Of a stretch of DNA of 64,000 nucleotides, positions 28,539 to 49,215 are shown one piece after another; position 1 is the stretch's first letter; each line of letters starts with the position of its first letter. The stretch is taken from the NCBI GenBank assembly GCA_963930775.1, contig OZ005689.1, forward strand, positions 26,224,058-26,288,057, read 5' to 3'. The translations under genes and the position numbers were made by a program. The notes below the pieces were generated by a model, which did not search any database, was not told the DNA's origin, and saw only the letters and a program-made list of their open reading frames with translations. The DNA is from Cliona cf. orientalis (lineage: Eukaryota > Porifera > Demospongiae > Clionaida > Clionaidae).

Positions 28539-28772
28539 TACCGTGCTTTTCAGGTTGGTTGTCCACCCCGCGACAACCGATTTTGAATTCGACCAATCAG
28601 CAATTCGTGTGACATCACTGGCACGCGCTAACGTAACGCGCGCATGCACAGTACAGCCGGCCCGCGCGCCCGGCCAGGCGTACCGCGTAGCGTGCGCGAG
28701 GGCGGGCACCGCGACATTGGCGGGAACATGTACATGCATGCATGTGCATGTCGTTAAGTCAGAGCTGGAGCC

Positions 28773-29912
28773 ATGAACGCTGACGCAGCTAGGTTGCTAG
28801 CTCAGCTTTGTCAGCAGTGTGGAATTCGTCCTCAGCTAGTCATACCAAATGTAAACGCCACCTCCGTTACGACACAGGTGTCGCTGCCAACTCAAGCCTC
28901 TGCTCAACATCCTACCACGGCGAGCTCAATGCCTACTAGAATTGTCCCAGCACCGTCGGGCCAAGGATCAAGACTAAGCAGCGGCTCACAAGTGAGTCAT
29001 GTGACCAATTCCAAGGTTGATTTGCCTATCAAGGTCGTCAATCCAAAATGCAAGCGAGAAGCCAAAACTTACATTTTGCGCTCAATTTCTGTCAATGACA
29101 TCACAACACTGAAGCGGCTCAAGGAGATGATTCTTGAACAGCTTGGCAAAAATGTTGTAAGCTTCCGACTTGGCTTTGATGTTGGATATGTGGTGAGTGG
29201 CTCTAACAGGATCTGCTTCAGCCAGAGTGATGATGTGAAATCAGAGCTGGGAAAGATAGTGAAGAAAGGGTATTCTCTGTGGTGTGAGGGATTGGATCCG
29301 GGAGCACAGAAACGGCCATGTGAAGCTGATGGTGTGGTTCTGCTTGATGATTCCGATGACGACTGCAGTGCTGGCAAGCCACCGGCAAAGAAGGATAAAA
29401 AATCTGCGTTTGAAGAACGGAAGGATGCTGTTAAAAGAATGGCTGACAAATTACACGACAAACATGGCCACACTTTTAATATGGTGCAGTACAAATTATG
29501 GGCTGAAGCATTGTACAGCAAGCAACATACCAGCTGGGATGAGCCACCAAAAGGATTGCCATGGGGTGATGGCAAAAAAACTAAATTTAATAAGTGCAAG
29601 GATGGAGGAAGCACAGGAGCTGCTGATGCTATGATGCATTCGTTTGCGACTATGGCTAGTTCAATTGCTGGTGCTATAGCAAAACCTTCAAGCACATCCC
29701 AGCCTTCAACCCCCGCATCACCTGAACCAACTCCACCGGCTCATTCGAGTGTTGGAATATCTCCTGGCCGTAAAATCGACCTTCAGGAGAAACTTCTTAA
29801 ACAAGTTGACTTGCTGCATCAAATGTTTGAACGTGGTGCAATCACAGCAGATCAATTTGAGCTACGAAGGGAATCAATCATGAAGCAACTACAAAGCCTC
29901 GACTGTGACTAG
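28773..29912 (+). CDS. Accessory protein of two-gene IS630-like element, 379 residues
   Basis: Intact frame. Residues 1-75 are Ser/Thr/Pro-rich. Residues 80-175 form a compact domain (TYILRSISVNDITTLKRLKE, then GYVVSGSNRICFS and LWCEGLDPG) whose alternating strands and one helix suggest a beta-grasp fold such as PB1 or ubiquitin-like; that is inference. An acidic/Lys-rich linker follows, then a helical segment (RMADKLHDKHGHTFNMVQYK) and a low-complexity Ser/Pro linker. The C-terminus, residues about 335-379 (LLHQMFERGAITADQFELRR), fits the SHOCT pattern, a short two-helix domain. The same three regions recur in the decayed copies at 38562-39649 and 46286-48366, always beside a related transposase, so it belongs to the element. 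Function unknown; DNA binding or oligomerisation is possible. Confidence 0.85.
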   Translation: MNADAARLLAQLCQQCGIRPQLVIPNVNATSVTTQVSLPTQASAQHPTTASSMPTRIVPAPSGQGSRLSSGSQVSHVTNSKVDLPIKVVNPKCKREAKTYILRSISVNDITTLKRLKEMILEQLGKNVVSFRLGFDVGYVVSGSNRICFSQSDDVKSELGKIVKKGYSLWCEGLDPGAQKRPCEADGVVLLDDSDDDCSAGKPPAKKDKKSAFEERKDAVKRMADKLHDKHGHTFNMVQYKLWAEALYSKQHTSWDEPPKGLPWGDGKKTKFNKCKDGGSTGAADAMMHSFATMASSIAGAIAKPSSTSQPSTPASPEPTPPAHSSVGISPGRKIDLQEKLLKQVDLLHQMFERGAITADQFELRRESIMKQLQSLDCD

Positions 29913-30018
29913 GCATGGAGGACTCTGTACTTTTTTCTGCAGTGAAATTCATTTCCTAAATTTGATATTGGTATAATAATTATAAATATTATTATGCATG
30001 CATGTACATGAAAGAAAG

Positions 30019-30987
30019 TTAAATACAATATCCAGCATGGCGGATATATCCTAAGCAGTCATCACTAGTAACAGATGCAAAGGCCATTGTTAGAAATAGA
30101 GATGGATTATCTGTTGAAGTATACAGTACTTCACTTCTCTTAAGAAAATACTTCACTTGACTAAATACTTCTTCCAATGGCATGAAGTCAGGGCTATAGG
30201 CTGGCATGAATCGAATCATCACCCCTTTCCTGTTGACAAGCTTTATCACTTCGTCCACATGATGAATACTGGCATTATCCAAGATAAGGATGGATCTAGG
30301 ATTGACTCCATTGAAAGGTTGCATAATTGGTAAAATACTATGTTCTAGAAATTTAGTGAAAGCTTCCCCATTAGTGGTACCATCAATTATATCGATATCC
30401 TCAACTCCTCTGGAGGACATAGCTGTTATAACTGATAGACGTTTACCACTGATTCCAAGCTTGAAACTAACAGGTGTTAGTCCACGAAGGGCATATCCAA
30501 ACTTCCTGATTCCTTCACGTCGGCTATCCGAACCAGTTTCATCCACCCAGACTATCATATTCGGATCAATATATGACATCTCTTCTGCAAATTCTGCTCT
30601 TTCAGTCTCTGATCGCCTCAGTACAACATGCTGCAACTTCTTCCTTGTAAATCCCAGCCTTTGGAGTGTACGGCAGATGGTTGACAAGCTAACTGTAATA
30701 CCAGTACTTGAGTACAAATCTGACTGTAGCTCATCAAGGTAGATATTTGGCTTATTCATCACAGACTGTACCAAGCTCCTCTCTGCAAAGGCATCCAAGG
30801 TACGTTCAGGTCCATGTCTTTGATCAGTAGGATCCACAGTACCATTCTCATCGTATCGTGCTAAAATTCACTTGACTGTCTTTGTGCAAATAACAAGCAG
30901 ATCAGCAATCTCATTGATGCTGTATTGCCTATAGTGATACAACCACACGATCCTCCAACGAAGATCTATCGATAATGCTACTGGCAT
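30019..30987 (-). pseudogene. IS630-like DD34E transposase, one internal stop
   Basis: From ATG at 30987 the frame runs 322 residues, interrupted by a single TGA at codon 40 (30868-30870). The N-terminus is a helix-turn-helix (LRWRIVWLYHYRQYSINEIA). Catalytic residues are visible: VWVDETGSDSR (first D), LILDNASIHHVDE (second D) and FMPLEEVFSQVKYF (E), with 34 residues between the second D and the E by my count, the DD34E spacing of IS630/Tc1 transposases. Because only one stop separates it from a full frame, the insertion is recent relative to other copies in the window. An alternative shorter start is at 30837. Confidence 0.9.
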
Positions 30988-31130
30988 TGTGGCCGAGGAT
31001 TTAGCTACGCGCGGTTTTTCATTTGAAATTGGCCGGCCATGGGCGCGCGCACACCCTATAAGTCACGTGCACCTGATGGGCGTGCCCGCACGAAATTGCC
31101 GGAAATGGATAACCAACCTGAAAAGCACGG

Positions 31131-31434
31131 TAGAGGGGGCTAGCAGGGTTTGCAAACGAACGGAGAGTGAGGTGATATCATCATCATGCTTGTCAATAAT
31201 ACTTTGCTCCCTTTCAAGGTCTTAAATCGCCATCGATTATGTCGATCAGTTCAAAATGGTGTTTCTTGAAGTCTTCATCAAGAGATTGTAGCTTAGTCAG
31301 CAATTGTCGAGCATGGTCGGGAGTTCGAGGTTGATCCGAGGTCTCCTCGAGTTCCTTCAAGCGAGTGCCGAGCCTTGTGATTGATGCCCGCACAACTCCT
31401 CTTCTCTTGCGTAACTAGCGGCCGAAGTAGCCAT
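31131..31434 (-). pseudogene. BEL/Pao gag, 5' part
   Basis: ATG at 31434 opens a frame that shifts near 31405; the continuing frame encodes a basic then helical region (RASITRLGTRLKELEETSDQ, DEDFKKHHFELIDIID). This resembles the N-terminal coiled region of Pao gag proteins. It ends at the TA target of the inserted two-gene transposon. Confidence 0.75.
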
Positions 31435-31569
31435 GTCGACAGGCGACGTTTCAAAGAGGTTGATGGGCGTTAATTAGAAACCACACGTGCATACAACAAC
31501 TACCTAGTAGACTGTAAATATCACTTTCCTAGAGGCTGACTAACAAAAGATGCCGGTTTTTAGGCATAT

Positions 31570-31588
31570 CCGGCTCGAAGGACCAATA
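31570..31588 (-). other. Putative primer-binding site of BEL/Pao element
   Basis: Directly inside the 5' LTR, on the minus strand, the sequence reads TGGTCCTTCGAGCCGGAT. It begins with TGG as sites complementary to a tRNA 3' CCA end do, and similar sequences follow the 5' LTR of many BEL elements. The tRNA was not identified. Confidence 0.6.
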
Positions 31589-31589
31589 A

Positions 31590-31743
31590 TGGGCGAGCCA
31601 GCTCTAGGATTATAGTAGATTTAAACGCTCTTACTAACTCATGCACTCACTTCAAAATTGCACTTTTTATGTTCTAATTACAAGAAAAATTTACAAATTA
31701 CAAAAAGATGAGATGACGACCATTACCAGGTTGAGTCATAACA
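31590..31743 (-). repeat. BEL/Pao 5' LTR
   Basis: Direct repeat of 23116-23269 with a few substitutions (for example ACTCACTTC against ACTAACTTC). Confidence 0.85.
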
Positions 31744-31803
31744 CTGGTGAAGTGTGAATGTGAGCTGCTGCTGGGGTTGAGGGGTTGTCAGTGTCCATTT
31801 CCA

Positions 31804-32466
31804 TATGTGACCGTCTATGGGAAAACCCACCATATGGAATTTTTTGTGAAAGTCTAGTTTGATGCATCTATGATAAGCTCTACCATAGAGCTACCTCGCG
31901 TTCAAGTTCTAGACCGATCATGTTCTTCATTGTGGAAATACAGTGCTTTGTTTGCAATCGCGCCACACCCTCAATAATCGAGAAATTACGGTCCAAAGGC
32001 GTTGCTATGCACGCGTATGGCGTTTCCACATACTACGCGTGACCCGGAAATCAATTAAATGGACCTGGGCGGAGCCGTTTGAAATGAACGTAGAAATCAT
32101 GCAAGAGTTAAATTTCGTTGTTGACAACGACAGCCGATTGTTCTTAGATGCCCAAGAAGCTAGAGGTGAGCGAATGTACAGTAGTTCAATGAATCTAGCT
32201 GTATCTAGGTAGAGAATTCTAATTAGCGCCCATAGCAACGGGCTCCGGGTACGGCAGCTGGGCCGACTAGGTGGGTCAAAATGAAGGCTTATTTCACCTT
32301 TGTATAGATCGACTGGCCTCCGTAGACGGCAACAGTTAGAAGGGTTGTTCGACATGTATATGACAAAATCTGGACTTTGACAAATTTCGACCTGAGCTAC
32401 TAAAAACGTACATTGTGCGAATAGCACACGGATCCCATATGCCGGGTTTTCCCGTAGACGGTCACA
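31804..32466. mobile_element. 0.66-kb MITE, copy 2 of 3 (inverted)
   Basis: Ends TATGTGACCGTCTATGGGAA and, reversed, TGTGACCGTCTACGGGAAAA. It lies in reverse orientation to copies 1 and 3 and splits the 5' part of the piggyBac gene. On the plus strand an open frame from 31943 contains the conserved segment MNVEIMQELNFVVDNDSRLF followed by a GAG|GTGAGC donor-like site at 32165. Confidence 0.85.
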
Positions 32467-32469
32467 GAT

Positions 32470-32600
32470 CATCACCATCTTAGGTCTGAGAATTCATCAT
32501 CGCTGCCCTCCATCATTGGTTCGTCGGGGTCATCATAGTCAGACAGCACATCATCATCATCCAGGACTTCATCCAGCATCAGGCGTTGCCTCTTAGTCAT
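32470..32600 (-). pseudogene. piggyBac transposase N-terminus
   Basis: ATG at 32600 opens MTKRQRLMLDEVLDDDDVLS and continues with Asp/Glu-rich sequence (SDYDDPDEPMMEGSDDEFSD). Acidic N-termini of this kind are usual in piggyBac transposases. The frame runs into the MITE at 32466; beyond it, 31749-31803 keeps a Thr/Pro-rich stretch before the BEL element. Confidence 0.65.
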
Positions 32601-32611
32601 AGTGGCTGCTT

Positions 32612-33199
32612 TTATAGCTAGCTATAGGTTTTATTTATAATAGGTATATAATTATCATCACAATAGCATAGTGTTAGGTGTCAAAATTTAGCCATAGCAG
32701 CTTGAGTCCCCAGTGCTAAGTACAATAACTAGCATTATTGTATACTGGTCTTTGTTATGGTTATGATACTGTTGTTGAGTACTACTAAACTTCAATGCAT
32801 GGTTATGGACTTATGTTGTATAGTGGATAGTACTGAATTGTTAGTGTATACTTACCTACGGGAGAGATCAATAAGTGTGGTGAAGGTCCGTCCCACCGTT
32901 GGCCTATGTTGGTAAGTGCATTGCAGCTGGCTCGAAATCGTGCCTACGGCGGTTCGCGCGCGCGGCCCAAAATCAGATATCCATCATCTATCCAGCAGAG
33001 CACTAGCATTGCACGCGCTAGCTAGTAGTTCGCCTATGCCTAGGGAATAACGGTGCTGTCACGTGACTTCATCATGGCAACACATTCTGAGCATGTGCAT
33101 TATACTTCAGAAGGCTCGGTCTCACATATCAACGTGTTTAGCCTAGCTTCCCAGCTCATTTCCGATTCCTGACAGCTAGTTTGTAGTAATTATTAATAA
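32612..33199. other. Non-coding spacer
   Basis: Probable 5' region of the piggyBac element, then a segment resembling 9540-9590. No gene recognised. Confidence 0.45.
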
Positions 33200-33373
33200 T
33201 TGCATCCTAATGGCATGCAGCGCCCGCTCAGCGCCTTTAAACATGACGTCATTCGAAGTGGTATAAATGTCCGTTTCAACACCTTCCTCAGTCTTCTTTC
33301 GAGCTCGCCAAAAATTTCCGAAGTTTATCAAGCTCACCAAAGTTTAGTCACTGATGTTCTCAAGTATTCAACG

Positions 33374-34540
33374 ATGGCCACAGCTCCCGAAGCTACTGGA
33401 TGGGAGTTACCAATAACCGAGCAACCCGGATCGCTCGATGCTATCCTGCAGAGCCTAGGGCTCGACCAACTCAACCCTCCAACCCCCACTGGAGGTAGCG
33501 CAGAAAACGTGGAGCTCAGGGGGCTCACACCATCTATCGAAGCGTTGGCCCAAGATGTGGCAAACAAGTTTGGGACTCTTGATGAGAGGTTGAATGCCTT
33601 GAGAATTGTCCACTGGCACCACAGGTGCAAAATAGCCACAGGGCAATCTCATTTAGCACCTCCACACCCGCGCCAGAGGCGCGAAGACCCAGCTTCTTGC
33701 AGAAGCCTGGTGAGCCATCGAGCTGCCAAACCAATGACCCGGAGCGGCTACCATGGTCAGAGAGACCCTTGGACGAGGTACCAGATTACGAACAAATGCT
33801 CACCTGGCATGACGAGGATGATGATGCCTCATCAGCTAACTCAAAGCTGTTTGCTGATCAGAAGCAACAGACAAGCTTCTGCAGGACTCCTTCAAAAAGG
33901 CAGTCCCCAACACCACTAGAAAGCAGTGGAGGGAGCGCTACGGTGATCCTAAGTGCCCTAAGACATGAGTGCCTAAGCTGGATAAGATTGTGAAAGATAG
34001 ACTTCACCAAGAGACAGCTAATCTGGATTGAGTCCTGGCCAGGATCCAGGCTTTGACTCTGGATGCCGTTGGCCCGTTGACCACTATCGTTGAACAAGCT
34101 GAAGCTAACATGCTCACGATGGAGGGAGCACTTGCCGCGGCCAGGATAGCCATGAAGTTCATTGGCAATGCTTCAGTGCAAATCTCCCAGGAAAGGAGGA
34201 AGAAGGCTATCATGGACATGAATCCTAAGCTAGTCGATATGGCTGAGTCAGATACCATATTTGAAGATGCAGCCCCTAACCTGTTTGACGATAAATTTGC
34301 CAAAGAGGCCAAGGACCGTGAAGACCAGCTCCGGTGCTTGGATCGAGCCTCGGGTCGAGGCAGAAACAACCAACATTTTCGATATGGCCGCCCTCTGGCC
34401 ACCTGCTGAGGGGGGCGGCAACTTTGCCTCCCGCAGGGGAGGCTTCAGAGGAAGGGGACACTTCCAACCATACAACCAATTCCAAAAACCCAAAGGAAAA
34501 GAAAACTACCACCAGAAAAGGTCCGGAGGAGCCCAGTGAA
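33374..34540 (+). pseudogene. DIRS-like gag remnant
   Basis: Starts MATAPEATGWELPITEQPGS and continues with frame changes near 33620, 33990 and 34400. The central part (LTTIVEQAEANMLTMEGALA, ARIAMKFIGNASVQISQERR, AESDTIFEDAAPNLFDDKFA) follows the pattern of the capsid-like protein of DIRS-type tyrosine-recombinase retrotransposons, and an RG/FRGRG-rich tail follows near 34420-34480. No reverse transcriptase or recombinase is found next to it, so only a fragment remains. Class assignment is by pattern memory and moderately sure. Confidence 0.6.
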
Positions 34541-35138
34541 GAAGCAGAAACTACAAGAGGATCTAGATCAGACAGCTGAACAAACTAAACTGTCAGTGAC
34601 TGACCACATTTTTGTGTCCATTAGTATATCCCATATTAAATAATATCACTTCATATACTGTTCGGCATTTAACACAGCTCGGAGTAGCTAATATAGCTGT
34701 ACAGACAGCAGATAAATCTAGTCAGTTTGCTAGTAGGCTTACCCTGTTCACAGAAAATTGGAAAAAATATGCACAGACTGGTGGGTCCTAGATGCAATTC
34801 AAGGCTAGATGCAATTCAAGGGTACCAGATAGAGTGGTCGGAGCAACCACATCAGCATTATGTCCCAACCATCTAGAAACTGCTTTTCACCTCGATCTTC
34901 TGTAGTTATAATTATGTGAAATGGGCGTAATTTCTAGCACAGAGGTGACTCACTATCACCTTTCAATGGCACCACTCAGCTGAAATCTGATTGGTTCTTC
35001 CAGTGGATCACTTCAGGCTAACACCAAGGATCACTTTTGAGTAACACCTTGGGTTATGGCGGGACCAATCTGCTTCCTGCTTCTCCATAAATGCTGGCTA
35101 ATTTCAAGTTTGTGAAAGGAAGATTCTGGATCAAGACG
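34541..35138. other. Spacer before pogo gene
   Basis: No gene recognised. A short tandem duplication of AGATGCAATTCAAGG occurs near 34791-34820. The pogo element's left end should be here but was not identified. Confidence 0.45.
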
Positions 35139-36016
35139 ATGGAGCAGTTATCAATCAAGCAGTTTACCCAGTCAGCACAGCCATTTGCCCCATTTAAGGG
35201 CCCTCTAAGGACTCTACAGCCTATGGATCGAGTACCAAAAGTAAAAAGGTCTGCAGGTAGACCATGAAAGCGACCTCGTGAGGATCCCGAGACTCAAGTT
35301 CCATCACCCCAGACTGAAAGTGACGAAGCTTCCCTTCCAGGCACCAGCAAGAATTCAAAGCCTACTAAAAGAGTCAGAGCTGCCTATACCGTTGCAAGTG
35401 GTGAAGTATGCCGAGGAGCACAGTGTTTATCAGGCAAGCAAACATTTCAACATCAGTCTAGGAACAATAGGCCCTTGGATGAAGATAGACTTTTCCAAAG
35501 AGAACACTGTAGGTAGGGTAGTATTCAGAGTTGCTGGAAGTGGAAGAAAGCTGAGTTATCCAATGGAGGAGGAAGAGTTGGTAGCATGGGTCCTAGAACA
35601 ACGAGATCTACATCTAGCAGTCTCTATACAGCACGTCATCGACCAAGCCAGGCTGACCATTCAGCCTTCTACTCCATCTTTTCAAGGAACCAGAGGCTGG
35701 GTTCAGAAAGTTATGAGACGAAACAACCTCTTTGCGAGCTAAGACATCCATCGCACAGAAGCTACCTGCTGCCCTCGAGAAGATGGCAACTTTCATCCGG
35801 TCTGTTCGAGATATCCGGAAAGAATTAAAGTATCCAGACAGCGTGATAGTCAACATGGATGAAACCCCCATGTACTTTGACATGACTACCAACAAGACAA
35901 TCAACCAGAAAGGTCCAAAAACTGTCTCTATTAGATCCACTGGTACTGAGAAGCGACGGCTAACAGTTATCCTGGCTGCAACTGGAAATGGACAAATGCT
36001 GTCTCCAATGATCATT
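35139..36016 (+). pseudogene. pogo-type transposase, N-terminal half
   Basis: Begins MEQLSIKQFTQSAQPFAPFK; an in-frame TGA near 35264 and shifts near 35380 and 35740 follow. A CENP-B-like helix-turn-helix is visible (VKYAEEHSVYQASKHFNISL). The DDE_1 core starts with VIVNMDETPMYFDM, holding the first catalytic Asp, and continues to TVILAATGNGQMLSPMII, where the TTAA-target element interrupts it. The family carries out cut-and-paste transposition at TA sites. Confidence 0.85.
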
Positions 36017-36714
36017 TTAAACTGATTATACGTGGAATGTTGAAGATGTCATTACCCGTAACCGCTAAATTAAATTATGTAAAAATAGTGTACTAGCTAT
36101 TATTAGTCTTTGTACAGCGTCTTAGAACGGTTGTCATAGCTATGGACGCTTTATTCACACGAAGGAGTCATTGTACAACCTTCGTAGTTAGTTACTTTAG
36201 CTTCGTATGTACATATAGTACGCTATTTCTGAACAAAAAAGCTTAAAAACTTACTTACCTCCAAACGGTCGCCGTCTCAAGTCCATCCGTGGTTAGTAGA
36301 ACTCTTCATCTCACTTCGTCTACACAGTAAGGTAGATATAGACCTAGTCTAACTATGCTTAGCGATATGTCTGTACTGCACGTACTGTTGCAGAAAACAA
36401 ACCTACTTCAACGCTTAGGTCGATCGTGGCCATGTCGATCTTGATAAGTACCCTCGTTAGTACTTCCTTTCTGAAAGTCAACGAGTGACATTGAAGCCAC
36501 ACTGGAGTAAGGTATTTCCTGTACTAACCTCAGGATGCCAAGCCCAAACTAATCTACTATGGAATGATGGGCGCGGCTATAGCACAGCAATAATGGCGCT
36601 TGCACCTTACAGGAAATTTGGGGAATCTTGCAACTTGCGTTAACCCGTACGGGTGACGATCTTGCGCATGCGCATTCCAAACTGGCCGGAGCGAGTTTCA
36701 AACTTGACTTTGCT

Positions 36715-38509
36715 ATGTCGATCAATCCAAGGAGAACGAGCGCTTACAGCGAAGATCTTTGATGGCGGATGGTTTGGAAAAGGAGGGACTGGGGTTATCC
36801 AACAATGATATCGCCAGTATTTTGGGAGTGGACCCTTCCACCGTCAGTCGAGTGGTTTCGTTGTTTAAAGCATAGATATTATAGACTACGTAAACGGGAT
36901 TGGAAACTGCTCACGTGAGCTATAGAACGTGTACGCGCACTCCGTGTTATGGTTTGCATTCTTGGATAGACCCGTTGCTATGACAATTTGAGCAAAAAAT
37001 GGCCGAAAATGGCGACCGCAGTGCACTTATCGACTAATAGCAGCGAAATGACAGTAGTTTTGAACTTCAACAAAGCTTATCCCAGTGAAGGAGTCCCTAC
37101 TCTAAACGTGGCCAGCAAGTTCGAGTTTCCGAAGTCTCTCTGGTCTACGCTACAGTCCTACAAAGTCCAAGAACCAATGAACCAATAATGGCTGATCAAG
37201 AACTGTTGAAAACCGTTTATTTCAGTGTATCGGTGCAGTGGCTTTGCCCTTTCCACCATCTTGGGATGCGCTGTCTTACTTGTGACCGTTTTGACACTTG
37301 ATGCGCTGTCTTCTGTGAGTGAGCAGGCCGTGAAAAGGCCCAAAAATCGGCCATTTTTGCTTCTTGGACTTTGTAGGACTGTAGCGTAGACCAGAGAGAC
37401 TTCGGAAACTCGAACTTGCTGGCCACGTTTAGAGTAGGGACTCCTTCACTGGGATAAGCTTTGTTGAAGTTCAAAACTACTGTCATTTCGCTGCTATTAG
37501 TCGATAAGTGCACTGCGGTCGCCATTTTCGGCCATTTTTTGCTCAAATTGTCATAGCAACGGGTCTATCCAAGAATGCAAACCATAACACGGAGTGCGCG
37601 TACACGTTCTATAGCTCACGTGAGCAGTTTCCAATCCCGTTTACGTAGTCTATAATATCTATGTTTAAAGCAACTGGAAGTGTGCAGAAAAGGCCTTATC
37701 CTAAAGATGCCAGACCAGGCAAAAAGCTCACCAAAACAGTAGAGCTTACAATTCTTCATACTGTACTTCGACGCCTTGGTATCTGTTTGCGTGAGCTTCG
37801 GATGCAAGTGTTTATACTTACTGGAGTAGGTGTCAGTGTTTCCAGCCTCTGCACTTTCCTTCATGGTTCAAATTTTACCCACCAAAGGATGCAACTTATA
37901 CCTCAACAGCGTGAAAAACAGCTGCGTGACATGTTCACAATTGATGTATCCTTGTACAAGTCTTACCAGTTAATCTTTGTAGATGAGACTGGAACCGACT
38001 GTCGAGATGCCATAAGAAAGTACGGCTATGATTTGCGGGAAAGGCCCCCTAGATCATACAAATTCCTGATACGAGGAGAGAGAATCAATGCAGTCACCAC
38101 CATGAACCAAGAAGGAATTTTAGCATTGAGGACAGTCCGAGGGAGTGTGAATGGTGATGACTTTCTCGAATTTATTCAAAGAGATTTACTCCCGACACTA
38201 ATGCCGTTTGATGGTCAAAACCCCAACAGCATAGTGATATTGGACAATTGTTCAATTCATCATGTGTCACATGTTGCATCTATGATTACCCAGGTTGGTG
38301 CACTAGTCCATTTTCTACCGCCTTATTCATCCAACTTGAACCCTATTGAGGAATGCTTTTCAAAGGTCAAGTCACTACTTAAGAACATGGAAACAACCCT
38401 TCATGATGATCTAGAGTCCCACATTCTGGCTGCATTCTCATGCATCACACCAGACGATTGCAAAGGATGGATTTCAGACAGTACAATATACAATATTAAC
38501 AATAATTAA
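36715..38509 (+). pseudogene. IS630-like DD34E transposase split by foldback element
   Basis: ATG at 36715 begins MSINPRRTSAYSEDL; a TGA and a frameshift follow within 60 bp. The helix-turn-helix (NNDIASILGVDPSTVSRVVS) is cut at 36870 and resumes at 37671. From 37661 an unbroken 282-codon frame runs to the stop at 38507. Catalytic residues: IFVDETGTDCRD, IVILDNCSIHHVS and SNLNPIEECFSKVK, with 34 residues between the second Asp and the Glu. It is related to the transposases at 30019-30987 and 48456-49205. Confidence 0.9.
36871..37663. mobile_element. Foldback element with about 300-bp inverted arms
   Basis: Left arm 36871 to about 37171 and right arm about 37374 to 37663 are near-perfect reverse copies, ending CATAGATATTATAGACTACG. 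The flanks carry TTTAAAG on both sides (36864-36870 and 37664-37670), a 7-bp duplication that becomes 8-9 bp if the terminal bases are assigned differently. Both arms encode the same peptide start, MSKKWPKMATAVHLSTNSSE, on opposite strands. Long inverted arms and a 7-9 bp target suggest a MULE-like non-autonomous element, not proved. Confidence 0.88.
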
Positions 38510-38561
38510 ATGTATACTGTTCATCACATCACAAATTATTATTGACTTGTTGAGCATAGTT

Positions 38562-39649
38562 TCAGTTCAATTTACGCGGAGAGTCCAAAATATTCCTTAT
38601 TTGCTCGAGAAATTCTGTTTCAGAGAGAATATTATCCTCAAAGAGTTGCTGAAGGAAACGCAATTGTTGGAAGTTCTTCATTCGTAACTCAATACTTTTC
38701 CCTGGGGACATGACAACTGATGGTGGATTGAGATTGAGTGGTGCTTGTTGACTTTGCTCAGGTTGCTGAGCAGTTGAAGTAAGGGGGCTAAAAGCCTAGG
38801 TAATAGCAACAGCAGCACTTGTAATTGATTTCTGCTAGACAGTCTCTCTTTGGCCGTTTAGGTGGAGGTCCAAACATGGGCAATGGAGGTGGGGTTTCAA
38901 AACTCATGAGTACCACGCCACAGTGAAGTATTCGTGCCCATAACCTTCGCTGAGGGACACTGTGTCACCCATGCTTATTCGTGTTTTATAGTGTTTATCC
39001 TCATCTTTTTCGTCAAGTTTCGACGATGTACCATCATCTCTCTTCTTATGCCTACCATGGCCATCAGATGTCTTGTCATCATGTGTATGTATGTATGTAC
39101 TTCAGCATAACACCACAGCGAGATTTTGTCCGTCTTCAATCCCGAATACATCTGCCCCAAATCCTCAGCTGTTACTAGCCAGCATTTACTGGTGCGCTTT
39201 TCATAATAACAGACATCAAACTGGGTACATCATCTTTAAATTCCTCCATCAAATGAACTTTTATGTCGGTCACAGATCGAAACTCTCCGTCAAAATGAAG
39301 TTGTCTTGTTATTGCCTTTTTGCCTCTCTTGGGGCTGTTTAGAATTGTGACTTTGTACCTGTACGTCCTCGGCCTCGGCACGGTATTGGCCCCCGAGAGA
39401 GAGAGAGATGGGAGGTGACGGCAAATTTACAGCAAGCAACTCGGTCTGACACTATTTCTAATAAGTGCTCATCATAGCCGCTGAGCAACATGCAACTCAA
39501 CTTGATTCCTCTTCTTGTATAGCAGGAACATGGACGGTCGTAACAAGTGTTTGAAGAGATGAGTTGGCTTGCTTATTTCCTCCATTGTTAATCACAGTAG
39601 CAAAGACACCACGCGGGACCATGCCATCCGCCATTTGGCCAATATTCAT
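38562..39649 (-). pseudogene. Accessory gene of two-gene element, copy 2
   Basis: ATG at 39649 starts MNIGQMADGMVPRGVFATVI; stops and frameshifts interrupt it. The domain with TYRYKVTILNSPKRGKKA (39175-39381) matches the place of the beta-grasp-like domain of the 28773-29912 protein. The C-terminus near 38562-38720 reads SPGKSIELRMKNFQQLRFLQ then QLFEDNILSETEFLEQI, equivalent to SPGRKIDLQEKLLKQ and MFERGAITADQFELRR in copy 1. This is the SHOCT-like part. It faces the copy 2 transposase, with 52 bp between their stop codons. Confidence 0.75.
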
Positions 39650-39766
39650 TCGCATGCGTAAATGTGAGTGGCAGCTGAGTTTGCAAGATTCCCCATATTT
39701 CCTGTAAGGCGTCTCTCGCGCTTAATGACATGCACGCGCATGCGCCTCTTGCGTATAATCGGTTAA

Positions 39767-40447: not shown

Positions 40448-40975
40448 CTTGGTGCTAAGCCCCGTTTACACATACTAATCTGGATTAGTTTGATCTAGAT
40501 TGGAATCCGGATTAAAGCTGTCCACACGCATACCTCTAGCGCAACCACGAAACCACATTGTGTATAAATACGTAAGTGGATTACAAAATGGATTAACCCT
40601 TGACCTATACCACGCTATGGTGCTCTGTATTTGGAATAAGAAGGCAAAGAAGCGAGGAAGACGAAAGCAAAGAGCTCCCTTGAAGCAAGACAAGGTCTAA
40701 AGGTAAGATCGGGGTATAAAACTGTAACTGTAGGTTGTGAGCATGCGCACTGGTGTGCAGATTGCCTAGTAACCACTTGAAATTTGTATAAACGAGTTGG
40801 TATGATGGATAAGGTTGCCGTTGTTGCTGCTGTGAGGGCCTGTTTGTAGCGAGGAGGCAGCGAGAGGTTGAGCGAATGAGGTGGAGGAGACAGCGTATGA
40901 GACGATACCGAGCTTTTGCTAAGTGGCAGGCTCGGCAGCACTTAGTGTTTATGATGATGTTGGCAGGGATTTCAT

Positions 40976-41929
40976 TTGGTCTGCATGGACATGGAGCAAC
41001 TGTGGTGTAAAGAAAGGACCTCACATTGGTGGGAGCATATAGTGAGCTGTTTTACTCCCCAAGACGGGCTGCAAAACTTTCGTATGTCAAAAGATACCTT
41101 TGCGTATCTCTGTGACCAACTGCGTTCATCGATTACCAAGAGTGATACTATTATGAGGAAGGCAATTTCAACAGAACGGCGAGTGGCCATAACTTTGTGG
41201 TTTTTATCCACTGGTTCTGACTATAGAACGATTGGGCATCTCTTCGGTGTGTCCAAGTCGGCTCTCTGTATAGTGACAAAGGAAGTGTGTACTGCTATTG
41301 TTGAGTGTCTTCTACCAAAGTACATCAAGATACCTGTAGGTGCGGCTCTACAAGAGAATGTTGAAGCTTTTAAAATGGAACTCCGTTTTCCCCAGTGTGT
41401 TGGAGCTGTGGATGGGACTCATATTCCAATAATTTCTCCCCAAGAATGCCCTGCAGATTATTATAACAGAAAGGGGTGGCGTTCCATCATCCTTCAAGGG
41501 ACTGTTGATCATGCCAGTCAATTTATTGACATATATGTTGGGTGGCCGGGTCGAGTGCACGACGCATGTGTATTTTCAAATTCTAGTCTGTACCACAGAG
41601 GGCAGAGTAGCATTCTATTTCCTGATCTGAAGGAATCAATCTCTGGTAGAGATATTCCATTGGTCCTCATTGGTGATCCAGCGTATCCACTACTAAAATG
41701 GCTAATGAAAGCTTTCCCTGATAATGGACGACTATCTTGTGAACAAAAAGTATTTAATTATCGTCTAAGTAGGGCTCGAGTAGTGGTGGAGCAGTTACGG
41801 TCGACTGAAGGGAAGGTGGAGATGCTTGCTGAAAATTTAGATCTTGATGTGAGGGATGTGTCTGAACTGGTGGCTGCATGTTGTGTATTGCATAACATAT
41901 GTAACATATGTGAAGTACATGGTATGTGA
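40976..41929 (+). CDS. Harbinger transposase (HARBI1-like nuclease)
   Basis: An intact 317-codon frame. DDE_4 nuclease: CVGAVDGTHIPIISP holds the first Asp, PLVLIGDPAYPLLKWLMKAF the second, and the SRARVVVEQLRS segment the Glu, at the expected positions. A helix-turn-helix lies near residues 70-110 (ERRVAITLWFLSTGSDYRTI, then FGVSKSALC). The C-terminal VSELVAACCVLHNICN is the usual ending. Length is close to that of HARBI1-type proteins (about 350), so the start may lie slightly upstream or in a small exon. The Glu context lacks the usual FGRLK sequence. Confidence 0.92.
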   Translation: MVCMDMEQLWCKERTSHWWEHIVSCFTPQDGLQNFRMSKDTFAYLCDQLRSSITKSDTIMRKAISTERRVAITLWFLSTGSDYRTIGHLFGVSKSALCIVTKEVCTAIVECLLPKYIKIPVGAALQENVEAFKMELRFPQCVGAVDGTHIPIISPQECPADYYNRKGWRSIILQGTVDHASQFIDIYVGWPGRVHDACVFSNSSLYHRGQSSILFPDLKESISGRDIPLVLIGDPAYPLLKWLMKAFPDNGRLSCEQKVFNYRLSRARVVVEQLRSTEGKVEMLAENLDLDVRDVSELVAACCVLHNICNICEVHGM

Positions 41930-42187
41930 AGTACATGGTGATGCAGTTGATGACGATTGGTTGAATGGAGTGGACAGCCAGGAGTTTGAGAGCACTTCAA
42001 GTTGCAATAGCACCAGTGATCCCGTACAAAGTGCAACAGATACTCGAAACGCCTTTATGGCCCACTTTAGCCAGTAGACTACACTGTAGCTACATGTATG
42101 CTATAATATCAGCAGCTGCTGCTATAATAATGTTATACATACATGTGCTTGGTTAATACATTATAAATGTTTATGGGGTTCTTTCTG

Positions 42188-43176
42188 TTAGTATCGAGGA
42201 TTATACGTGTCATCAAACTCGTATGATCTACCATAGGTCTGATTGCCTCGGTGGAACATGTGTCCCAATAGCTCCATCATTCTGAGCTCATGCTCCTGGT
42301 TTTCGAGCCTTCGTTTCTCCTCAAATTCCATCTCCTGCCACCTTTCTTCCTCCTGCTTTGTATGCCGCTCCTCTGCTTCCATTTGATACTTTAAAAATGT
42401 ATCCATGGCTCTCTCCAGTCCCTTTTCAGCTCTGGTCTTCTCAATTTTTGCCTTCTTGCTAGGCACGCTTACAGCTGAAATTGATATGTGTACATTGAGA
42501 GAGGGTGGGAGTAAAGAGAGAGTAGTATGTATTATTTTGTGTGTGTGTGTGTGGGGGGGGGGGGGGGTGGGGGGATATAAAAATTAATCAATATTTAAAA
42601 TTTCCACTATAACATACATGCTTGTTCCCCAGGTCGCTTTTGCTGGGTGGTCCTTCAGACTCTGGAATCAAAGTACTATCTATAGGTGACTCGGTTTGAA
42701 CATCATCTCCCTCTGTGGGTAATCTCAGTAAGTGAGACATTAAAACTAAAATATACTTTACTTACCAGTTATTTGTGTTTCCTCAGTGCTGTCTTCCACT
42801 GTGCTACTACCAGTTCCCTTGTTGAGAAGTGCTGCTGGAACAGAAGCTGGTCTATGGCCTAGGATACTATCTAATTAGCTCTTTAAAGAATTTGCATGTC
42901 TTTCTGCCTCTCCCTGTCTCTCCATTGTGGTCTTTCACTTGTCTATTCCTTTTTTAAATTGTGTATTTTTGTTTTACACTGCTCCCACTCTCGATTGTAC
43001 CCTTGCTCTTGCAATTTCCTGGAGATGTCTTGGTAAACTACTTTATTTCTAACAGCACCATCCAGCTCTTCCTGCACATTTGCCTCTCCCCAGATAGCTA
43101 TCAGGGCTCTCATTTCCTCATCAGACCACAGGGAGCCACGGGAGCTTGTTGAGGTTGACACAGTGGTTAAACTCAT
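42188..43176 (-). pseudogene. Harbinger Myb/SANT-like DNA-binding protein
   Basis: Exon 1 (43176 to about 42943) encodes a trihelix Myb/SANT domain: LWSDEEMRALIAIWGEANVQ, then GAVRNKVVYQDISRKLQ and QCKTKIHNLKKE. A one- or two-base loss introduces a TAG near 42945, and a further indel follows near 42880, so the copy is damaged. A later exon (42188-42466) codes for a long charged coiled coil (RHTKQEEERWQEMEFEEKRR) ending YNPRY. Harbinger Myb proteins bind the element ends and bring the nuclease into the nucleus. Confidence 0.82.
42538..42574. repeat. TG and poly-G simple repeat
   Basis: GTGTGTGTGT followed by a run of G with one T interruption, in the intron of the Myb gene. Confidence 0.9.
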
Positions 43177-43639
43177 GGTAGTAGCACTATCACAACTATC
43201 TTAATCCACTTACGATCCGAGTCAGCTGTTTACACACACGCGCTTGGCGCCTAATCTGGATTCAATCCAGGTTCAACCCACATCCTGATGTGGGTTACGT
43301 AATCTGGATTCCAGTCTGAGTTAAGCGCGTCCACACGTATACAGATTAGATTAATCCAGATCCCAATCCAAGTTAAACGCTGTGTGTAAACGGGGCTCTA
43401 GTTAGCTGTGTACTGTACTGTGTATTCCTATTCTGCAGTCATGCACTTGTTATAAATTTACCCAAGAACCCACCTTTGTTTTGATAAAACACTCTCTGGT
43501 TTGGCCACCTGTCTGCCCAAACTACAAGCTGGTTTAGACAAGCACGCTTCCTGGTAGTGTGACATATTCCGTTAGATTGGATTCACCAGAAAATAATTTC
43601 AAGTCCCGCCTTACATTAGATTAGATTAGATTCATAAAA

Positions 43640-44147
43640 ATTCCAATAACTGAATTTCTTACGTTAAATTGGATCATGCGTTGTATTCGATTAACTACGG
43701 TAGCACCTATCCAAAACAGAGGAATATTGGTCAGGGGAAGTTGCATGCAAAGCAGTAACACCGGCAACATGAAGTTGATGGACCTGAAAAGCCACAATGG
43801 TTGATATATAAATTGATATATTTTCATTGAAATTCTAACCTGCTGCCCAATCAAGCCGATCAATGGGCTTATGATAATGCCCACTGCAGAGCTACCAGAT
43901 GCTAAGGGTACCAGGTACATACAGAGACTCTTCCCTGAACCAGTTGCCATCCTAACAAGAACATCCTTCTTGTGGAGTTCTGGTAGTACAGCATCAAGCT
44001 GACCAGGTCGAAATGATGCATACTTAAAATACTTTTCCAGAGCAAACTGACTTTCTCCTGAGCACCACACTGCACACAAATCTGATCAGAGCTTGTACCC
44101 CATGGGCACTCTTCAATGTTGCAAACAAACTCCAGCTGATTGCTCAT
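43640..44147 (-). pseudogene. RecQ-like helicase N-terminal fragment, two exons
   Basis: Exon 1 (to 43840) encodes YFKYASFRPGQLDAVLPELH (RecQ Q-motif region), VRMATGSGKSLCMYLVP (Walker A) and GIIISPLIGLIGQQ (motif Ia). It ends CAGCAG|GTTAGA; a 56-bp intron follows to TTTTCAG, and exon 2 (43783-43707) continues in frame with VHQLHVAGVTALHATSPDQY, ending GATAG|GTGCTA. A frameshift or a further small intron occurs within exon 1 near 44050 (between the Cys-rich start and the helicase). The remaining helicase motifs are missing, so only a fragment is present. RecQ-like genes occur as cargo in several transposons; which element brought this one is unknown. Confidence 0.75.
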
Positions 44148-44450
44148 TTTGAATTCAAAACGTTGGCAGGCCCGTCAAAAAAAGTCAACCATGTGATGAA
44201 ACAAGGACTCAGAAATTTTAGCTCGTGTGGCAGCCTTATTTATTTTTATCATACATATAAAACTACTCCATTACAGTGTATGCTATTCATAACAGGACAC
44301 CATTCTTTTTTACCCTTCATATCTTACACAACAAACAGTACACTCACTAGATATGCTAGACTCACAAGAGGCAGGCCGTCGAGATTGACGCGAGTCAACT
44401 CTCTCTACCTCAGTCATTTTACATTATCCTCTTCTTGCGCTTCCTTTTAG

Positions 44451-44524
44451 ACACTGGTGAAGATCTTGATCTTCAAAAGGCAAGAGAACTCGTGTTTGCG
44501 GCAAGTCCGCGGCAAGCTCTGCAG
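44451..44524 (+). CDS. Candidate orphan internal exon
   Basis: A 74-bp open segment (TGEDLDLQKARELVFAASPR) lies between a strong pyrimidine-rich acceptor (CTTCCTTTTAG) and a donor (GCAG|GTACGC). I do not recognise the protein and no neighbouring exon is assigned. Confidence 0.25.
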
Positions 44525-44776
44525 GTACGCATGCATGCGTGGGCGAATCACGCAACGAAGCAATTCCGTGACCGGATACACCTACGCTCATTATTTATGA
44601 CATTTATCACGCCACTTCTGATACCAGGCCATCCCCCTTTTCTGCGTGCAACATTGAAAACATGGGAGTGGCCTGGGGACGAGGCTAGGTGGCAACATGT
44701 ATGGATCCTTTTAGATGGTTCTATGTAGCCTGGTGAAATACGGAATACGGAATGTGGAGGGGGCTGGTGGCCGTGG

Positions 44777-44847
44777 ATGGTCGTAGCTCAGTGGATAGAG
44801 CACTGGCGGCTCAAGCCAGCGACCTGGGTTCAATTCCCGGCGGCTTA
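44777..44847 (+). repeat. tRNA-derived sequence (SINE head or tRNA pseudogene)
   Basis: Box A-like TAGCTCAGTGG and box B-like GGTTCAATTCC are spaced as in tRNA genes. D-arm, anticodon stem (CTGGC/GCCAG) and T stem (CTGGG/CCCGG) can pair, but the acceptor stem has two mismatches and position 33 is G, not U, so it is not a functional tRNA by these signs. Confidence 0.65.
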
Positions 44848-44904
44848 CCGGTTCTTTTGCACATTCCCTTTTAAGCCTGTGTTAGTATCAACACCTCACT
44901 GTAT

Positions 44905-45230
44905 GGATCCTGGAACAATCCCAGGATCTCTATGGTGTCTACAGAAGTCCAAAGATATTCTGACAGAGGGTGGCATGGTGTGTGTTGATCCCAGGATCTC
45001 CATGGTGTCTGATGGGTCCAAAGATACTACTCTGACAGAGGGTGGCATGGCGTGTGTGGATCCCAGGATCTCCATAGTGTCCGATAGGTCCGAAGATACT
45101 CTGACAGAGAGTGGCATGGCGTATGTGGATCCCAGGATCTCCACAGTATCTGATGGGTCAAAAGCTACTCTGACAGAGGGTGGCATGGTGTATGTGGATC
45201 TCTGGACATTCCAAGGATATCCATAGTGTG
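44905..45230. repeat. Minisatellite, about 75-bp unit, 4-5 copies
   Basis: Repeats of GGATCCCAGGATCTCCA ... GATACTCTGACAGAG ... GTGGCATGGCGTGTGTG, diverging by about 10%. It follows the tRNA-derived segment, perhaps as part of the same composite repeat. The long frame across it is a repeat artefact. Confidence 0.85.
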
Positions 45231-46128
45231 TATAATCTATGAATGGAAGGTTGTTTATGGACACTTTTGATTTTCTGACATGTCATGGTGTCATTGGACA
45301 TGAGTGTGGTTTTTGAGTATCTATATGCATGGGACACAAAAGTAATGCGAAGTTATCCTGTGCCATAGGTGATGTTTTCTCATTCAAAAACACTCACTAA
45401 AGGATAACACGGATAAGTTGAGATCAATAAGCGCATGATAATTAAGAAAGCAAGCGTAAGGAATTACAGTGAATGTGATTATCCCTGCCATCCCTACTTC
45501 ATCCTTCAATTTTATTCAATTGGTTTTTATACTTGTTAGTATATTATAGTTAGTTATAGTATCAATGTTTAATTTTGCGTCAAGCTTCTCTTTATGGTGG
45601 ACCCTTCTAATTTACTCAGTGGACACACTTTACAGTGGACATTTAGCACCCTCTCTGGGACACACTACCAACATACCCACTAGTAGCCAGTACATGTAAC
45701 TGCATGATGAGAGGAGATTTTAGGAATTGGCTTCACAGTGACTGCGAAGCGTATCCAATGAGAGTTAATATCCATCGTAAACAATTAATGGTTGTTAGGA
45801 AGGGATTCAGCAATCATCACTGTGAATGTCTCCACTGAGAGGCATCCCATAGCTAAGCTTATCATTTTAAACATGCTCCAAAAGGAAGCGTGTCGGCTCA
45901 AGAACGTTATGGCAAGGATATCAAAGTGAATTCCACAGGGTTTAGGAGGAAAGGGATGTCAAGGGATTCATACCTAGCTCCCCAAGGAAGGCCTCCATAA
46001 TAGAAACAGTCTAAATTTCATTCACAACAGGAGAGTAAGAAGGCCAAACGACCACACTGCCTCAGTGAAAATATTCAACTTAATTGTAGAAATTGATCAC
46101 GTATTATATTATTTTATCACCATCATCA
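45231..46128. other. Intergenic; dispersed repeat near 45470
   Basis: No gene. The piece 45471-45540 matches 12107-12205. Confidence 0.5.
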
Positions 46129-46285
46129 TACCATAATTTTTAGGTTCGTTGTCCAATACTTAAAATTCAAACTTACCGCATGCGCGTAAGGGTGCATTAT
46201 CCTGCGCCTGCGCACATGCGCTGTGTGGTTTCGTACATGTACGTACATCCGTGTGTCCCGTAGCTCGGAGTTACACTTTCGAGGT

Positions 46286-48366
46286 ATGTCTCAGTCAAGG
46301 CTCAGGACCCAGCCACCACCTTACACGCCTGCTCTTCAAGGCGCTTGTAAAGTCTCGACTGCAATCGTCGGTGTTAACAAAGGAAGGGTAACCGTGAACA
46401 ATTAAATTAACCAGATTCTAGGATTCCAGCACATGTGACTGTGGCACCGGTGTGGCCTGGTGTTGGAACGCAGCAACCTGTTACAATCACTCCGATTTCT
46501 CCCTTTGTACCACCTGCTACCCCCAAACCACCTATTATTATCCAAAAGGTGCTCCAAAGGGCCGTTTCCAAAGTAGGTAAACAGGTATTAAAGATGTTTA
46601 CCCTACGCAATATTGATGTCAATAAAATTGTGTCACGTGACAATTTGATGGGGGGTCAGCTTCGTGGTGATATTGTGTCAAGTGACTGATGTGGGGTACG
46701 TTTGTGGAAATAGTGTCATTAGCATTAGCAATCTGGATGATTTACCTGAAATTTGGTCGGATATAACTGAGAGGAAACACAAGGTTGTACTATGGTGTGA
46801 TGGCTTGAAAATGAAGGATAGTTCTGGTGATGCAACATCAAGTAGATGAAGGCAAGCCACAGGTTCTGAAAGTGATGAGGAAGAGGAGATTCAAGCAAAG
46901 TCTCAATACAAAAAAAAAGAAAACTTCGGCTCAAGAGAATCGAGAAGAAAAGGTGCAAACTACCATTGAACAACTGAAAGAGAAGCATGGTACTGTGTAT
47001 ACTTCAATGCAACTCTGAATATGGAATGAATCAATTGTAGGTGGCATTCATTCTAGTTTAAAAGCACTAACCTCCTCAATGTTCGCAAAAGCTGGTAAAG
47101 GTCCAACCAAGAAAAAAAGAAGCACTAACCCAGGCTGCTCTTGCTATTTCCACTGCCTTTTCACCCCGTGCACCACTCCCCTCAAGCTCTTCTAACCAGC
47201 CCCTTGAGACTAGTCCGGCAAAGGAGATCGAGTCCCGCTCAAAGTGCTATATAAATAATTGAATGAGCTGAACCAGCTGAGATCATCTGGTATTATTACA
47301 ACGAAAATATTTTTCAGAGCGATAATTTTCTTATATAGTCCGTATCATTACATGAGGGCATGGTTACACGTCTTGGAAGCACCCGGTTGCTATGAACGTG
47401 CGGCGCGGGCGGAGAGGAAGTCCGCACTACAAGGCTCAGGATTGGTCTGAACTGTAGGGTCATGTGCACAAAGAAGAGTGGCCTTAATGCCTCGGGCCAT
47501 AGCTACAGCTAGAGACGTACTTTGTCGATCCAACGATTGGCACGAAAGCGCCGCGCGTTTCGAGAGGCTGGCTTGCTAAGCAGGCGCTGGCGCTAGCCAC
47601 AGAGCCTCGAGCAAAGCAAGAGGCAAGGTCTGTTCTTTGTCATACCTGTCAGTAGTCCGGTAACGACGTTCGAGCAGAGCAAGAACGTCGCCATTGCACA
47701 CTTAGTTGGAGGGGTGTGGCCTCTGCAACCGCTTCCATCTGCGCATGCGCACAGTACTAATGTGTGAGCATGTACTGTTGTTAAATACATAATCATGCAT
47801 GCTAGCCACATTATCCCATGATTGTGACATTAAACATAACATACTTGTGATTTGTAAAAATATCACTGGACAAGATATCCTGGCTTGTCGGCATTTGTTC
47901 TACCGTGAAAGCTATGTTGGGACGTTGCATTGTAGTGGATAGACACTGTTTCATGCTGTTTCCGTGTACATGTAGTTTTGGCAAGTGCTGCGCGTGCCAC
48001 GTAAGTAAGTGTGCACGAGAGAGTGATCACACTTGGAGCATGCAAGAGAGAGCAGCTGATCTCTGTACTATTGTACTGTTAGTGTGTGGATGCATGCAAA
48101 CATGAAATTACCTCACAATAATTCGGCCCAAATGCATGCTTGATGACCCCTGCCTCTATTAGTCATGCTAATATGAATATGAATGTTGCACATGCATGAG
48201 TGATACACACACGCACGTCACGGGCAGTCTGACCTACATGTAGCCACTGAGAGTGTGTGTGAGTGTGCTAAAACACTGATCTTCACACAAAATACTTCTT
48301 GTTACAGAGGATGAATATTTTGAGGAGAAAGAATCGGTCATGTGTGTTGCGAAAGTTGAAAGGTAA
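46286..48366 (+). pseudogene. Accessory gene of two-gene element, copy 3
   Basis: Starts MSQSRLRTQPPPYTPALQGA, then changes frame repeatedly. The beta-grasp-like domain is recognisable: MFTLRNIDVNKIVSRDNLM, GYVCGNSVISISNLDDL and KHKVVLWCDGLKMKD parallel ILRSISVNDITTLKRLKE, GYVVSGSNRICFS and YSLWCEGLDPG in the 28773 protein. The helical segment reads QLKEKHGTVYTSMQL (against KLHDKHGHTFNMVQY). The SHOCT-like tail is LNELNQLRSSGIITT up to 47300; after a 1-kb insertion it resumes at 48307 with EDEYFEEKESVM and stops at 48366. Confidence 0.75.
47301..48301. mobile_element. Unclassified 1-kb insertion with TTACA duplication
   Basis: The SHOCT-like coding sequence of the copy 3 accessory gene is cut after TTACA (47296-47300) and resumes right after another TTACA (48302-48306). 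The insert is non-coding. Weak similarity of its ends (GAAAATATTTT and GAAGTATTTT reversed) may be terminal repeats. Its class is unknown. Confidence 0.6.
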
Positions 48367-48455
48367 CAGATACAGAGACAAATAATGGAAGCAACTCAAT
48401 GCACAAACACATAAAATTAATATTGCATCTTGACATTATGTATAAAAAAAATATT

Positions 48456-49205
48456 TTAGTAAACGTATCCGCTGTGGCGTATGCAGTCTTCAGATGTCAC
48501 CATGCCAAATGCCATTGCTAGCAGTGCCCTTGGAGCTGTGCACACTTGAAAAATCTTATCGTTAGCCCTTATAATGCTCTTCACTTGGTTGAAAATTTCC
48601 TCCAATGGCATTAGAACAGGTGAGTGTGGGGGCAAAAAATTACTTTTGCTTGTGCAACGGTTTCAATTAGATGTATTACTGGATCCACATGTTGGACAGA
48701 ACAATTGTCCATTATCACAACTGATCGAGGGTTAGTACCATCAAATGGATTTAGAATTGGCATTAAGGTTTCTAAAAAATATTCCTTGAATTTATCTCCA
48801 TTTACTAATCCTTCAACCAATTGAACATCATGTACGACTTCCATGGACATCACTTATTCCTGAATACCTTACTCCACGAATTAAGAGCCTGTGATCACGA
48901 CGTAGTATATTTCAGACACCATATCCATATCTTCTCTGGCTGTTTCGTCGATCATACCCAGTTTCATTGATCCAAACAAATATTGTGGGATCGTACATGG
49001 ATATTTCTGCCATGTATCTAGCTCTGCACTCTTCAGATCGCTGTAGAGCGACATACTGTATCTTTTGTCGATGCATCCCATTATTGTTAGTGTCCTACAT
49101 ATTATAGGAGCACTTCCACTCCGATGATGTCAAACAACTTGGTTTGGATTTCGGAAGGTAAATACCAGGATGCTCTAGAATCAAACGCAGCAAAATTAGC
49201 TGCTC
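48456..49205 (-). pseudogene. IS630-like transposase, copy 3, frameshifted
   Basis: Broken relative of the 30019-30987 protein. Recognisable pieces: LLRLILEHPGIYL (start, about 49200), PTIFVWINETGYDRR (first acidic site reads N-E where others read D-E), SVVIMDNCSVQHVDPVIHLI (second Asp), then after a shift near 48640 MPLEEIFNQVKSIIRAND (Glu) and SEDCIRHSGYVY at the stop (48456-48458). At least four frame changes. The loss of the first Asp fits long-term decay. Confidence 0.8.
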
Positions 49206-49215
49206 ATATGAGCCC

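Follow-up and report, generated by a model that had tools for sequence, protein, structure and literature searches.

A Convergent Second Gene Accompanies IS630-Type DD34E Transposases in a Sponge Genome

Single-protein cut-and-paste transposition has its model in Tc1/mariner-type elements, on which gene-delivery tools are also based. A 64,000-nucleotide stretch of the genome of the sponge Cliona cf. orientalis (contig OZ005689.1, positions 26,224,058 to 26,288,057; hereafter the window) raises the question as to how general this simplicity is: it contains three transposons in which an IS630-type DD34E transposase gene faces a second, convergent gene, the product of which we call the partner. 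Nearly all relatives of these transposons found in the genome carry such a convergent second gene, an association suggesting that the partner protein assists their movement. The reading that we favor, at a probability of roughly 0.6, is that in a large and diverse clade of IS630-type DD34E elements two convergent genes make up the autonomous unit, with the partner aiding the transposase in trans.

Copy 1 (28541..31130, 2590 bp) is flanked by a TA duplication (28539-28540 and 31131-31132) and bounded by 25-bp terminal inverted repeats (TIRs; left, 28541..28565, plus strand; right, 31106..31130, minus strand) that are identical at 24 of 25 positions. It contains an intact partner open reading frame (ORF) of 379 aa on the plus strand (28773..29912) and, 106 bp away, the convergent transposase gene on the minus strand (30019..30987) with a single in-frame TGA (30868-30870). 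In comparison with a copy elsewhere in the genome (locus L002; loci are labeled L in the following), identity begins and stops exactly at TA and TIR. Copy 2 (36610..39704, 3095 bp) also has TA on either side and 24-bp TIRs (36610-36633 and 39681-39704). The main open part of its transposase gene lies on the plus strand (37661..38509); the 5′ part, from about 36715, has suffered a frameshift and a stop and is split off by a foldback insertion, and the decayed partner gene on the minus strand (38568..39408) is left in pieces across several frames. The foldback element itself (36873-37661) has 318-bp inverted arms (99%), and the 11-bp sequence TGTTTAAAGCA is duplicated at its borders (36862 and 37662). 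Copy 3 (46131..49223) starts with a left TA (46129-46130) and a TIR from 46131; it is truncated at the right end, and no right TIR was found when we looked for it in the window. Its partner gene (plus strand, 46286..48366, end approximate) and its transposase gene (minus strand, pieces within 48459..49223) are both decayed. A roughly 1-kb insertion in this partner gene (~47313-48298) is absent from the related copy in L030, to which the DNA of copy 3 is 89-91% identical outside the insertion. Both TIRs are present in two of the three copies and an intact partner gene in one.

When the window was searched by tblastn with the 379-aa partner (E ≤ 1), the hits besides the protein itself were copy 3 (E down to 9e-7), copy 2 (E = 1e-4) and a single stretch at chance level (E = 0.09). 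A sequence-only reading of the window had described three copies that pair a transposase with a convergent second gene, and had quoted peptide blocks shared among the second genes. Both descriptions are confirmed, the blocks by the recovery of copies 2 and 3, with the qualification that copy 3 is truncated and that only copy 1 retains an intact partner gene.

Copies 1 and 2 share 37% identity in their transposases, and in both of these proteins 34 residues lie between D187 and E222, the spacing denoted DD34E. The Pfam family DDE_3 scored over its cut-off in both window transposases and in six of six genome copies; the NCBIfam model NF033545 (IS630) did so in eight of eight transposases submitted. 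Helix-turn-helix (HTH) matches with E ≤ 0.001 were found in five of six long transposase ORFs from the genome, four of them over the Pfam cut-off. The sixth ORF (L044), without an HTH match at this threshold, has a damaged 5′ end, and the HTH matches of the window transposases remained under the cut-off. Sleeping Beauty (E = 0.041) was the sole PDB match of the transposase at E ≤ 0.1. With a DDE_3/IS630-type catalytic domain, a TA target, short TIRs and DD34E, these elements show the features of IS630-Tc1-mariner transposons, but they depart from Tc1/mariner as usually described in not being single-gene elements: 137 of 142 transposase hits in the genome are accompanied by a convergent second gene. 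They are not PIF/Harbinger elements either, as they combine a DDE_3 transposase with TA instead of a Harbinger-type transposase with a 3-bp duplication.

To quantify the linkage of the two genes, we searched the genome (216.8 Mb, 149 contigs) with five partner sequences, each of a different subfamily, as queries (108, 126, 149, 141 and 143 hits, merged to 256 places) and with three transposase queries (142, 138 and 124 hits). The latter correspond to 169 places, for which 47 and 8 rows of the second and third queries were added by eye and overlaps merged. Because the search scores the best candidates only, these numbers of places are lower bounds. With all five partner queries taken together, the 137 linked transposase hits lie no more than 3 kb from a convergent partner hit, and 133 of the 142 lie within 500 bp of one (median 106 bp). 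Control shifts by 20, 50, 100 and -50 kb left 0, 0, 1 and 0 of 142 linked. The extra transposase queries brought the count to 160 of 169 places; copy 2 of the window is one of the nine places without a partner hit, yet it has a decayed partner gene.

The first partner query alone placed a transposase hit within 3 kb of 77 of its 108 hits, 76 of them convergent, and left 31 without. We fetched 20 of these 31 loci and found convergent transposase pieces within 3 kb in every one, mostly broken by stops, frameshifts or insertions. For these 20 loci, a stand-alone host gene is ruled out. The same query left 67 transposase hits without a partner hit, and three of these, picked by hand, all contained a strongly diverged partner. 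In the merged set, 164 of the 256 partner places are paired with a transposase; of the remaining 92, 13 fall within loci already inspected and 79 outside, 49 of the latter being matches shorter than 700 bp. Partner hits that mostly stand alone, or transposases that mostly lack the partner, would have spoken against the pairing. Neither pattern was seen, given the transposase pieces in all 20 fetched loci and the lack of a partner hit at only 5 of 142 transposase hits and 9 of 169 places. The copy in L003 has a close neighbor (G000:C7:4789206-4790963), another two-gene element, which belongs to a different subfamily. For other species, we compared 55 partner and 120 transposase rows from the protein database and matched pairs by equal source-sequence length. 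Two same-source pairs emerged (P0010/P0072 at 2360 and P0046/P0158 at 3790) versus 0.43 expected after shifting of lengths below 6 kb; at least two were obtained in 8 of 120 shifts, and as evidence for linkage beyond this genome the pairs are suggestive only.

The near absence of partnerless transposases also bears on whether the partner could be a copy-number regulator that restrains transposition. A separate convergent gene would permit separate expression, and convergence could conceivably provide antisense control, but one would expect at least some successful lineages to have lost a pure repressor. With only 9 of 169 places lacking a hit, we consider such a restraining role very improbable.

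Copies at different places in the genome end at or near TA and TIR, and therefore the two-gene unit moves as one. Both ends lie inside the loci for seven copy pairs. Four of these (L001/L002, L022/L023, L022/L024 and L023/L024) match as one block bounded exactly by TA and TIR, with no further similarity listed at E ≤ 1e-10. In the others the block overruns the left TA by 1 base (L011/L015), 4 bases (L020/L029) or 14 bases (L011/L012); L011 and L015 have longer TIRs of about 125-132 bp. For L006/L007, L006/L013, L008/L009 and L008/L010, the left end coincides with TA and TIR and the right end is not reached because the locus ends or, in L006/L013, because the match stops inside. Both ends are not visible in L001/L003 and L028/L030. 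A program-based search for 20-bp inverted ends next to TA was applied to 50 loci, which include three duplicates (L031/L005, L032/L018 and L033/L026) and many that are cut short, and to 150 controls with swapped flanks. It found TA-flanked ends with at most two mismatches in 20 in 19 of the 50 loci versus 1 of the 150 controls, where some matches may represent other repeats and an inner pair was picked in L011 and L015. No pair with six or fewer mismatches was detected in 17 of the 50 loci. A pattern like CAGnnnTTTGCAnGTTGGTT is, by eye, common to several element ends.

The partner proteins constitute one family, for which we predict a PB1/ubiquitin-like fold, an acidic-then-basic linker, a helical block, and a SHOCT-like hairpin. 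On the plus strand of copy 1, the putative PB1/ubiquitin-like (beta-grasp) domain is encoded at 29010..29297 (partner residues ~80-175), the conserved helical middle block with the KHG..Q..WAE region at 29406..29516 (~212-248), and the C-terminal SHOCT-like helical hairpin at 29763..29903 (~331-377). The predicted partner structure contains a beta-grasp fold of the PB1 type. PF00564 (PB1) scored over its cut-off in one of 20 members scanned (L017, 25.2 against 23.6; L021 stayed under it with 20.5) and was listed at E ≤ 0.1 for none of the 34 members of partner set A1. PF09851 (SHOCT) likewise passed in one of 20 (L020, 27.1 against 27) and matched 24 of the 34 members of set A1 at E ≤ 0.1 (best 9.6e-5). 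The beta-grasp-like and SHOCT-like regions that the sequence-only reading had pointed out find support both in the predicted fold and in these weak to borderline matches.

A PDB sequence search with the partner returned zero relatives at E ≤ 10, and for the C-terminal half folded alone Foldseek listed nothing at E ≤ 0.001 (ESCRT-I hairpins came closest, with E = 1); a fold is not excluded by its absence from the VIA or Foldseek listings. Protein-database searches identified 33 partner homologues, and a second search produced 53 rows, 30 of them already known. One homologue in UniRef is an "Uncharacterized protein" of Amphimedon queenslandica. The family as a whole is unnamed by the Pfam and NCBIfam scans made here and may sit unnamed in sponge gene sets. 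A bacterial or viral origin was considered and rejected: in a limited test, the conserved peptide patterns had no relative in viral_contigs or genome_contigs.

Among hand-chosen representatives, basic clusters of the nuclear-signal type occur in 21 of 22 partners (mean after shuffling, 4.1) and in 3 of 13 transposases (mean after shuffling, 0.8). Such clusters, together with two convergent genes and a Harbinger-like two-gene logic, would fit a partner that provides the DNA-binding part of a bipartite transposase, like the Myb-like ORF1 in PIF/Harbinger. However, the Pfam scans of the partner gave no Myb/SANT match and no DNA-binding family over the cut-off, and the transposases have HTH matches of their own. 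This division of labor appears quite unlikely to us.

Both genes are under purifying selection in most close pairs of copies. We estimated the ratio of nonsynonymous to synonymous substitution rates (dN/dS) for loci with a remaining ORF of 200 aa only. Twelve close partner pairs have a synonymous divergence (dS) below 0.13 and at least four changes; as these pairs are drawn from seven clusters, they are not independent of one another, and the numbers of changes are small. The partner dN/dS is 0.10-0.22 in nine of these pairs and at least 0.6 in three (L011/L015, 0.88 from four changes; L020/L029, 0.61; L038/L049, 0.61). The transposase dN/dS is 0.04-0.37 in eight close pairs. TIR elements do capture genes, and the three high values would be consistent with a captured host gene that hitch-hikes without a role in the element. 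Against this stand the low dN/dS in the other nine pairs, the presence of the gene in subfamilies that average 29% identity, and its linkage to 137 of 142 transposase hits. The hitch-hiking explanation is already disfavored, as the results here count against it, and we find it hardly tenable.

The two proteins have also diverged together. For 21 convergent loci, represented by 11 members, the identity matrices of partner and transposase are correlated with a Mantel r of 0.77 (p = 0.0001, 9,999 permutations). This analysis leaves out L010, for which the transposase ORF is that of a neighboring element; its inclusion (12 representatives of 22 loci) lowers r to 0.55 (p = 0.0009). Where the sequence-only reading had argued from conservation between diverged copies, linkage, dN/dS and the Mantel test together support the view of the second gene as a conserved, selected and co-diverging component of this transposon group.

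Among subfamilies, the mean identity is 29% for the partner versus 50% for the transposase. This faster loss of identity, as in proteins facing a changing host, would agree with a partner that targets the host rather than the transposase, either by anti-silencing or as a tether to a host PB1/ubiquitin-like pathway. PB1 and ubiquitin-like domains bind other proteins. Inspection of the partner alignment by eye furthermore revealed K or R at the position aligned with the basic lysine of PB1 in 19 of the 20 representatives covering it and no acidic OPCA-like cluster, as in a PB1 domain that binds a different partner. Nevertheless, the partner distances still track those of the transposase, and near-complete retention in the clade exceeds the need of an arms-race gene. 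We therefore judge a host target rather unlikely.

The joint maintenance of the two proteins makes it most likely that the partner is of help to the element, and we return to the two genes as one autonomous unit to consider how it may work. The partner would enter the nucleus via its basic linker and cooperate in trans with the transposase. The helical block or the hairpin of the partner could bind the transposase or build partner oligomers, and its PB1-like domain could engage either another partner molecule or a PB1 protein of the host. By such contacts the partner may aid import, assembly or tethering of the transposase complex, with the transposase recognizing the ends itself through its HTH domains. 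As most scanned transposases keep an HTH, DNA recognition need not be outsourced, and judging from these sequences a partner that imports, assembles or tethers the transposase would be more likely than one that binds the ends for it.

The near-universal retention of a second protein in a large clade implies that single-protein simplicity is not general. The elements represent a natural system of two components whose protein architecture is distinct, and they offer an entry to the host-interaction biology of early animals. Somewhat short of even odds, and only tentatively, we propose that an IS630-derived superfamily in sponges, and perhaps in other animals, is obligately two-protein, with the PB1-SHOCT partner required in trans to import or assemble the transposase complex. 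If true, this superfamily would overturn the one-protein rule for animal Tc1/mariner-type movement and would be a second, independent instance of Harbinger logic.

The window contains several other features. Short relics at 52699-52916 and 13184-13246 match L030/L037-subfamily transposases (E between 6e-7 and 1e-5), and the two relic pieces at 52.7-52.9 kb are oppositely oriented. On the minus strand, the region 2358-6190 comprises an ORF with a Helitron-like N-terminal domain (4889-6190) and, downstream, an ORF with an OTU-like protease domain (2358-3392). The same strand carries a transposase piece with DDE_Tnp_1_7 (21468-22040), presumably of the piggyBac type, a Pao-type retrotransposon ORF of 908 aa with Peptidase_A17 (25091-27817), and a 514-aa ORF (57015-58559) that matched no Pfam family at E ≤ 0.001 and has further long same-strand ORFs on both sides. 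On the plus strand, a 317-aa ORF with DDE_Tnp_4, which we take to be a Harbinger-type transposase, lies between copies 2 and 3 (40976-41929), and a tRNA-Glu (CTC) is predicted at 44777-44849.

How do these elements compare with known systems? Tc1/mariner, DD34E/Gambol and bacterial IS630 elements have DDE_3, DD34E, the TA target and HTH matches in common with them. Those elements typically have one gene only, whereas the elements described here have two. Sailor, reportedly an IS630-Tc1-mariner element of both eukaryotes and prokaryotes (PMC8533490), differs in its DD82E spacing. Gambol is described with DD34E and a TA target in the accessible text of PMC7386202, which treats Gambol, pogo and Zator as separate superfamilies. 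Among the literature matches listed, covered by titles and abstract openings and thinly for subscription journals, none showed a Tc1/mariner-type element of an animal in which a second gene is conserved, and the available part of PMC4007536 names none.

Tc1/mariner elements with extra ORFs do occur in ciliates, namely TBE in Oxytricha, Sardine, Thon, Anchois and Tennessee in Paramecium, and Tec in Euplotes (PMC4724952, PMC3464196). According to the available sections of these papers, TBE contains a 22-kD ORF that is reversed relative to the other two, and all three ORFs are under purifying selection with an overall dN/dS of 0.1-0.3. Like the sponge elements, the ciliate elements combine an IS630/Tc1-type DDE transposase with further genes between TIRs. 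Compared by description in the same sections, their extra ORFs (at least one) are zinc finger/kinase, tyrosine recombinase or hypothetical proteins, none described as PB1 or SHOCT. A PB1 domain tied to a transposase-derived protein is found in MUSTANG-B of plants (MUG7 and MUG8), where, in the accessible text of PMC8616336, PB1 is fused to a domesticated MULE transposase and was probably acquired by transduplication. MUSTANG-B is, however, a fusion rather than a separate gene and is not of the IS630 type.

The sequence-only reading had likened the second protein to the Myb partner of Harbinger. The available text of PMC2836001 reports that PIF/Harbinger encodes two proteins, each required for transposition, and that in zebrafish Harbinger the TIRs are bound by the ORF1 protein, which the transposase also needs in order to localize to the nucleus. 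The parallel is loose because the Harbinger transposase has, in this text, no obvious DNA-binding domain, whereas five of six transposases here have an HTH match and the partner has no Myb/SANT match. PIF/Harbinger also differs in its DDE family, its 3-bp target duplication and its Myb-like partner; what it has in common with the elements described here is that both encode two proteins of their own.

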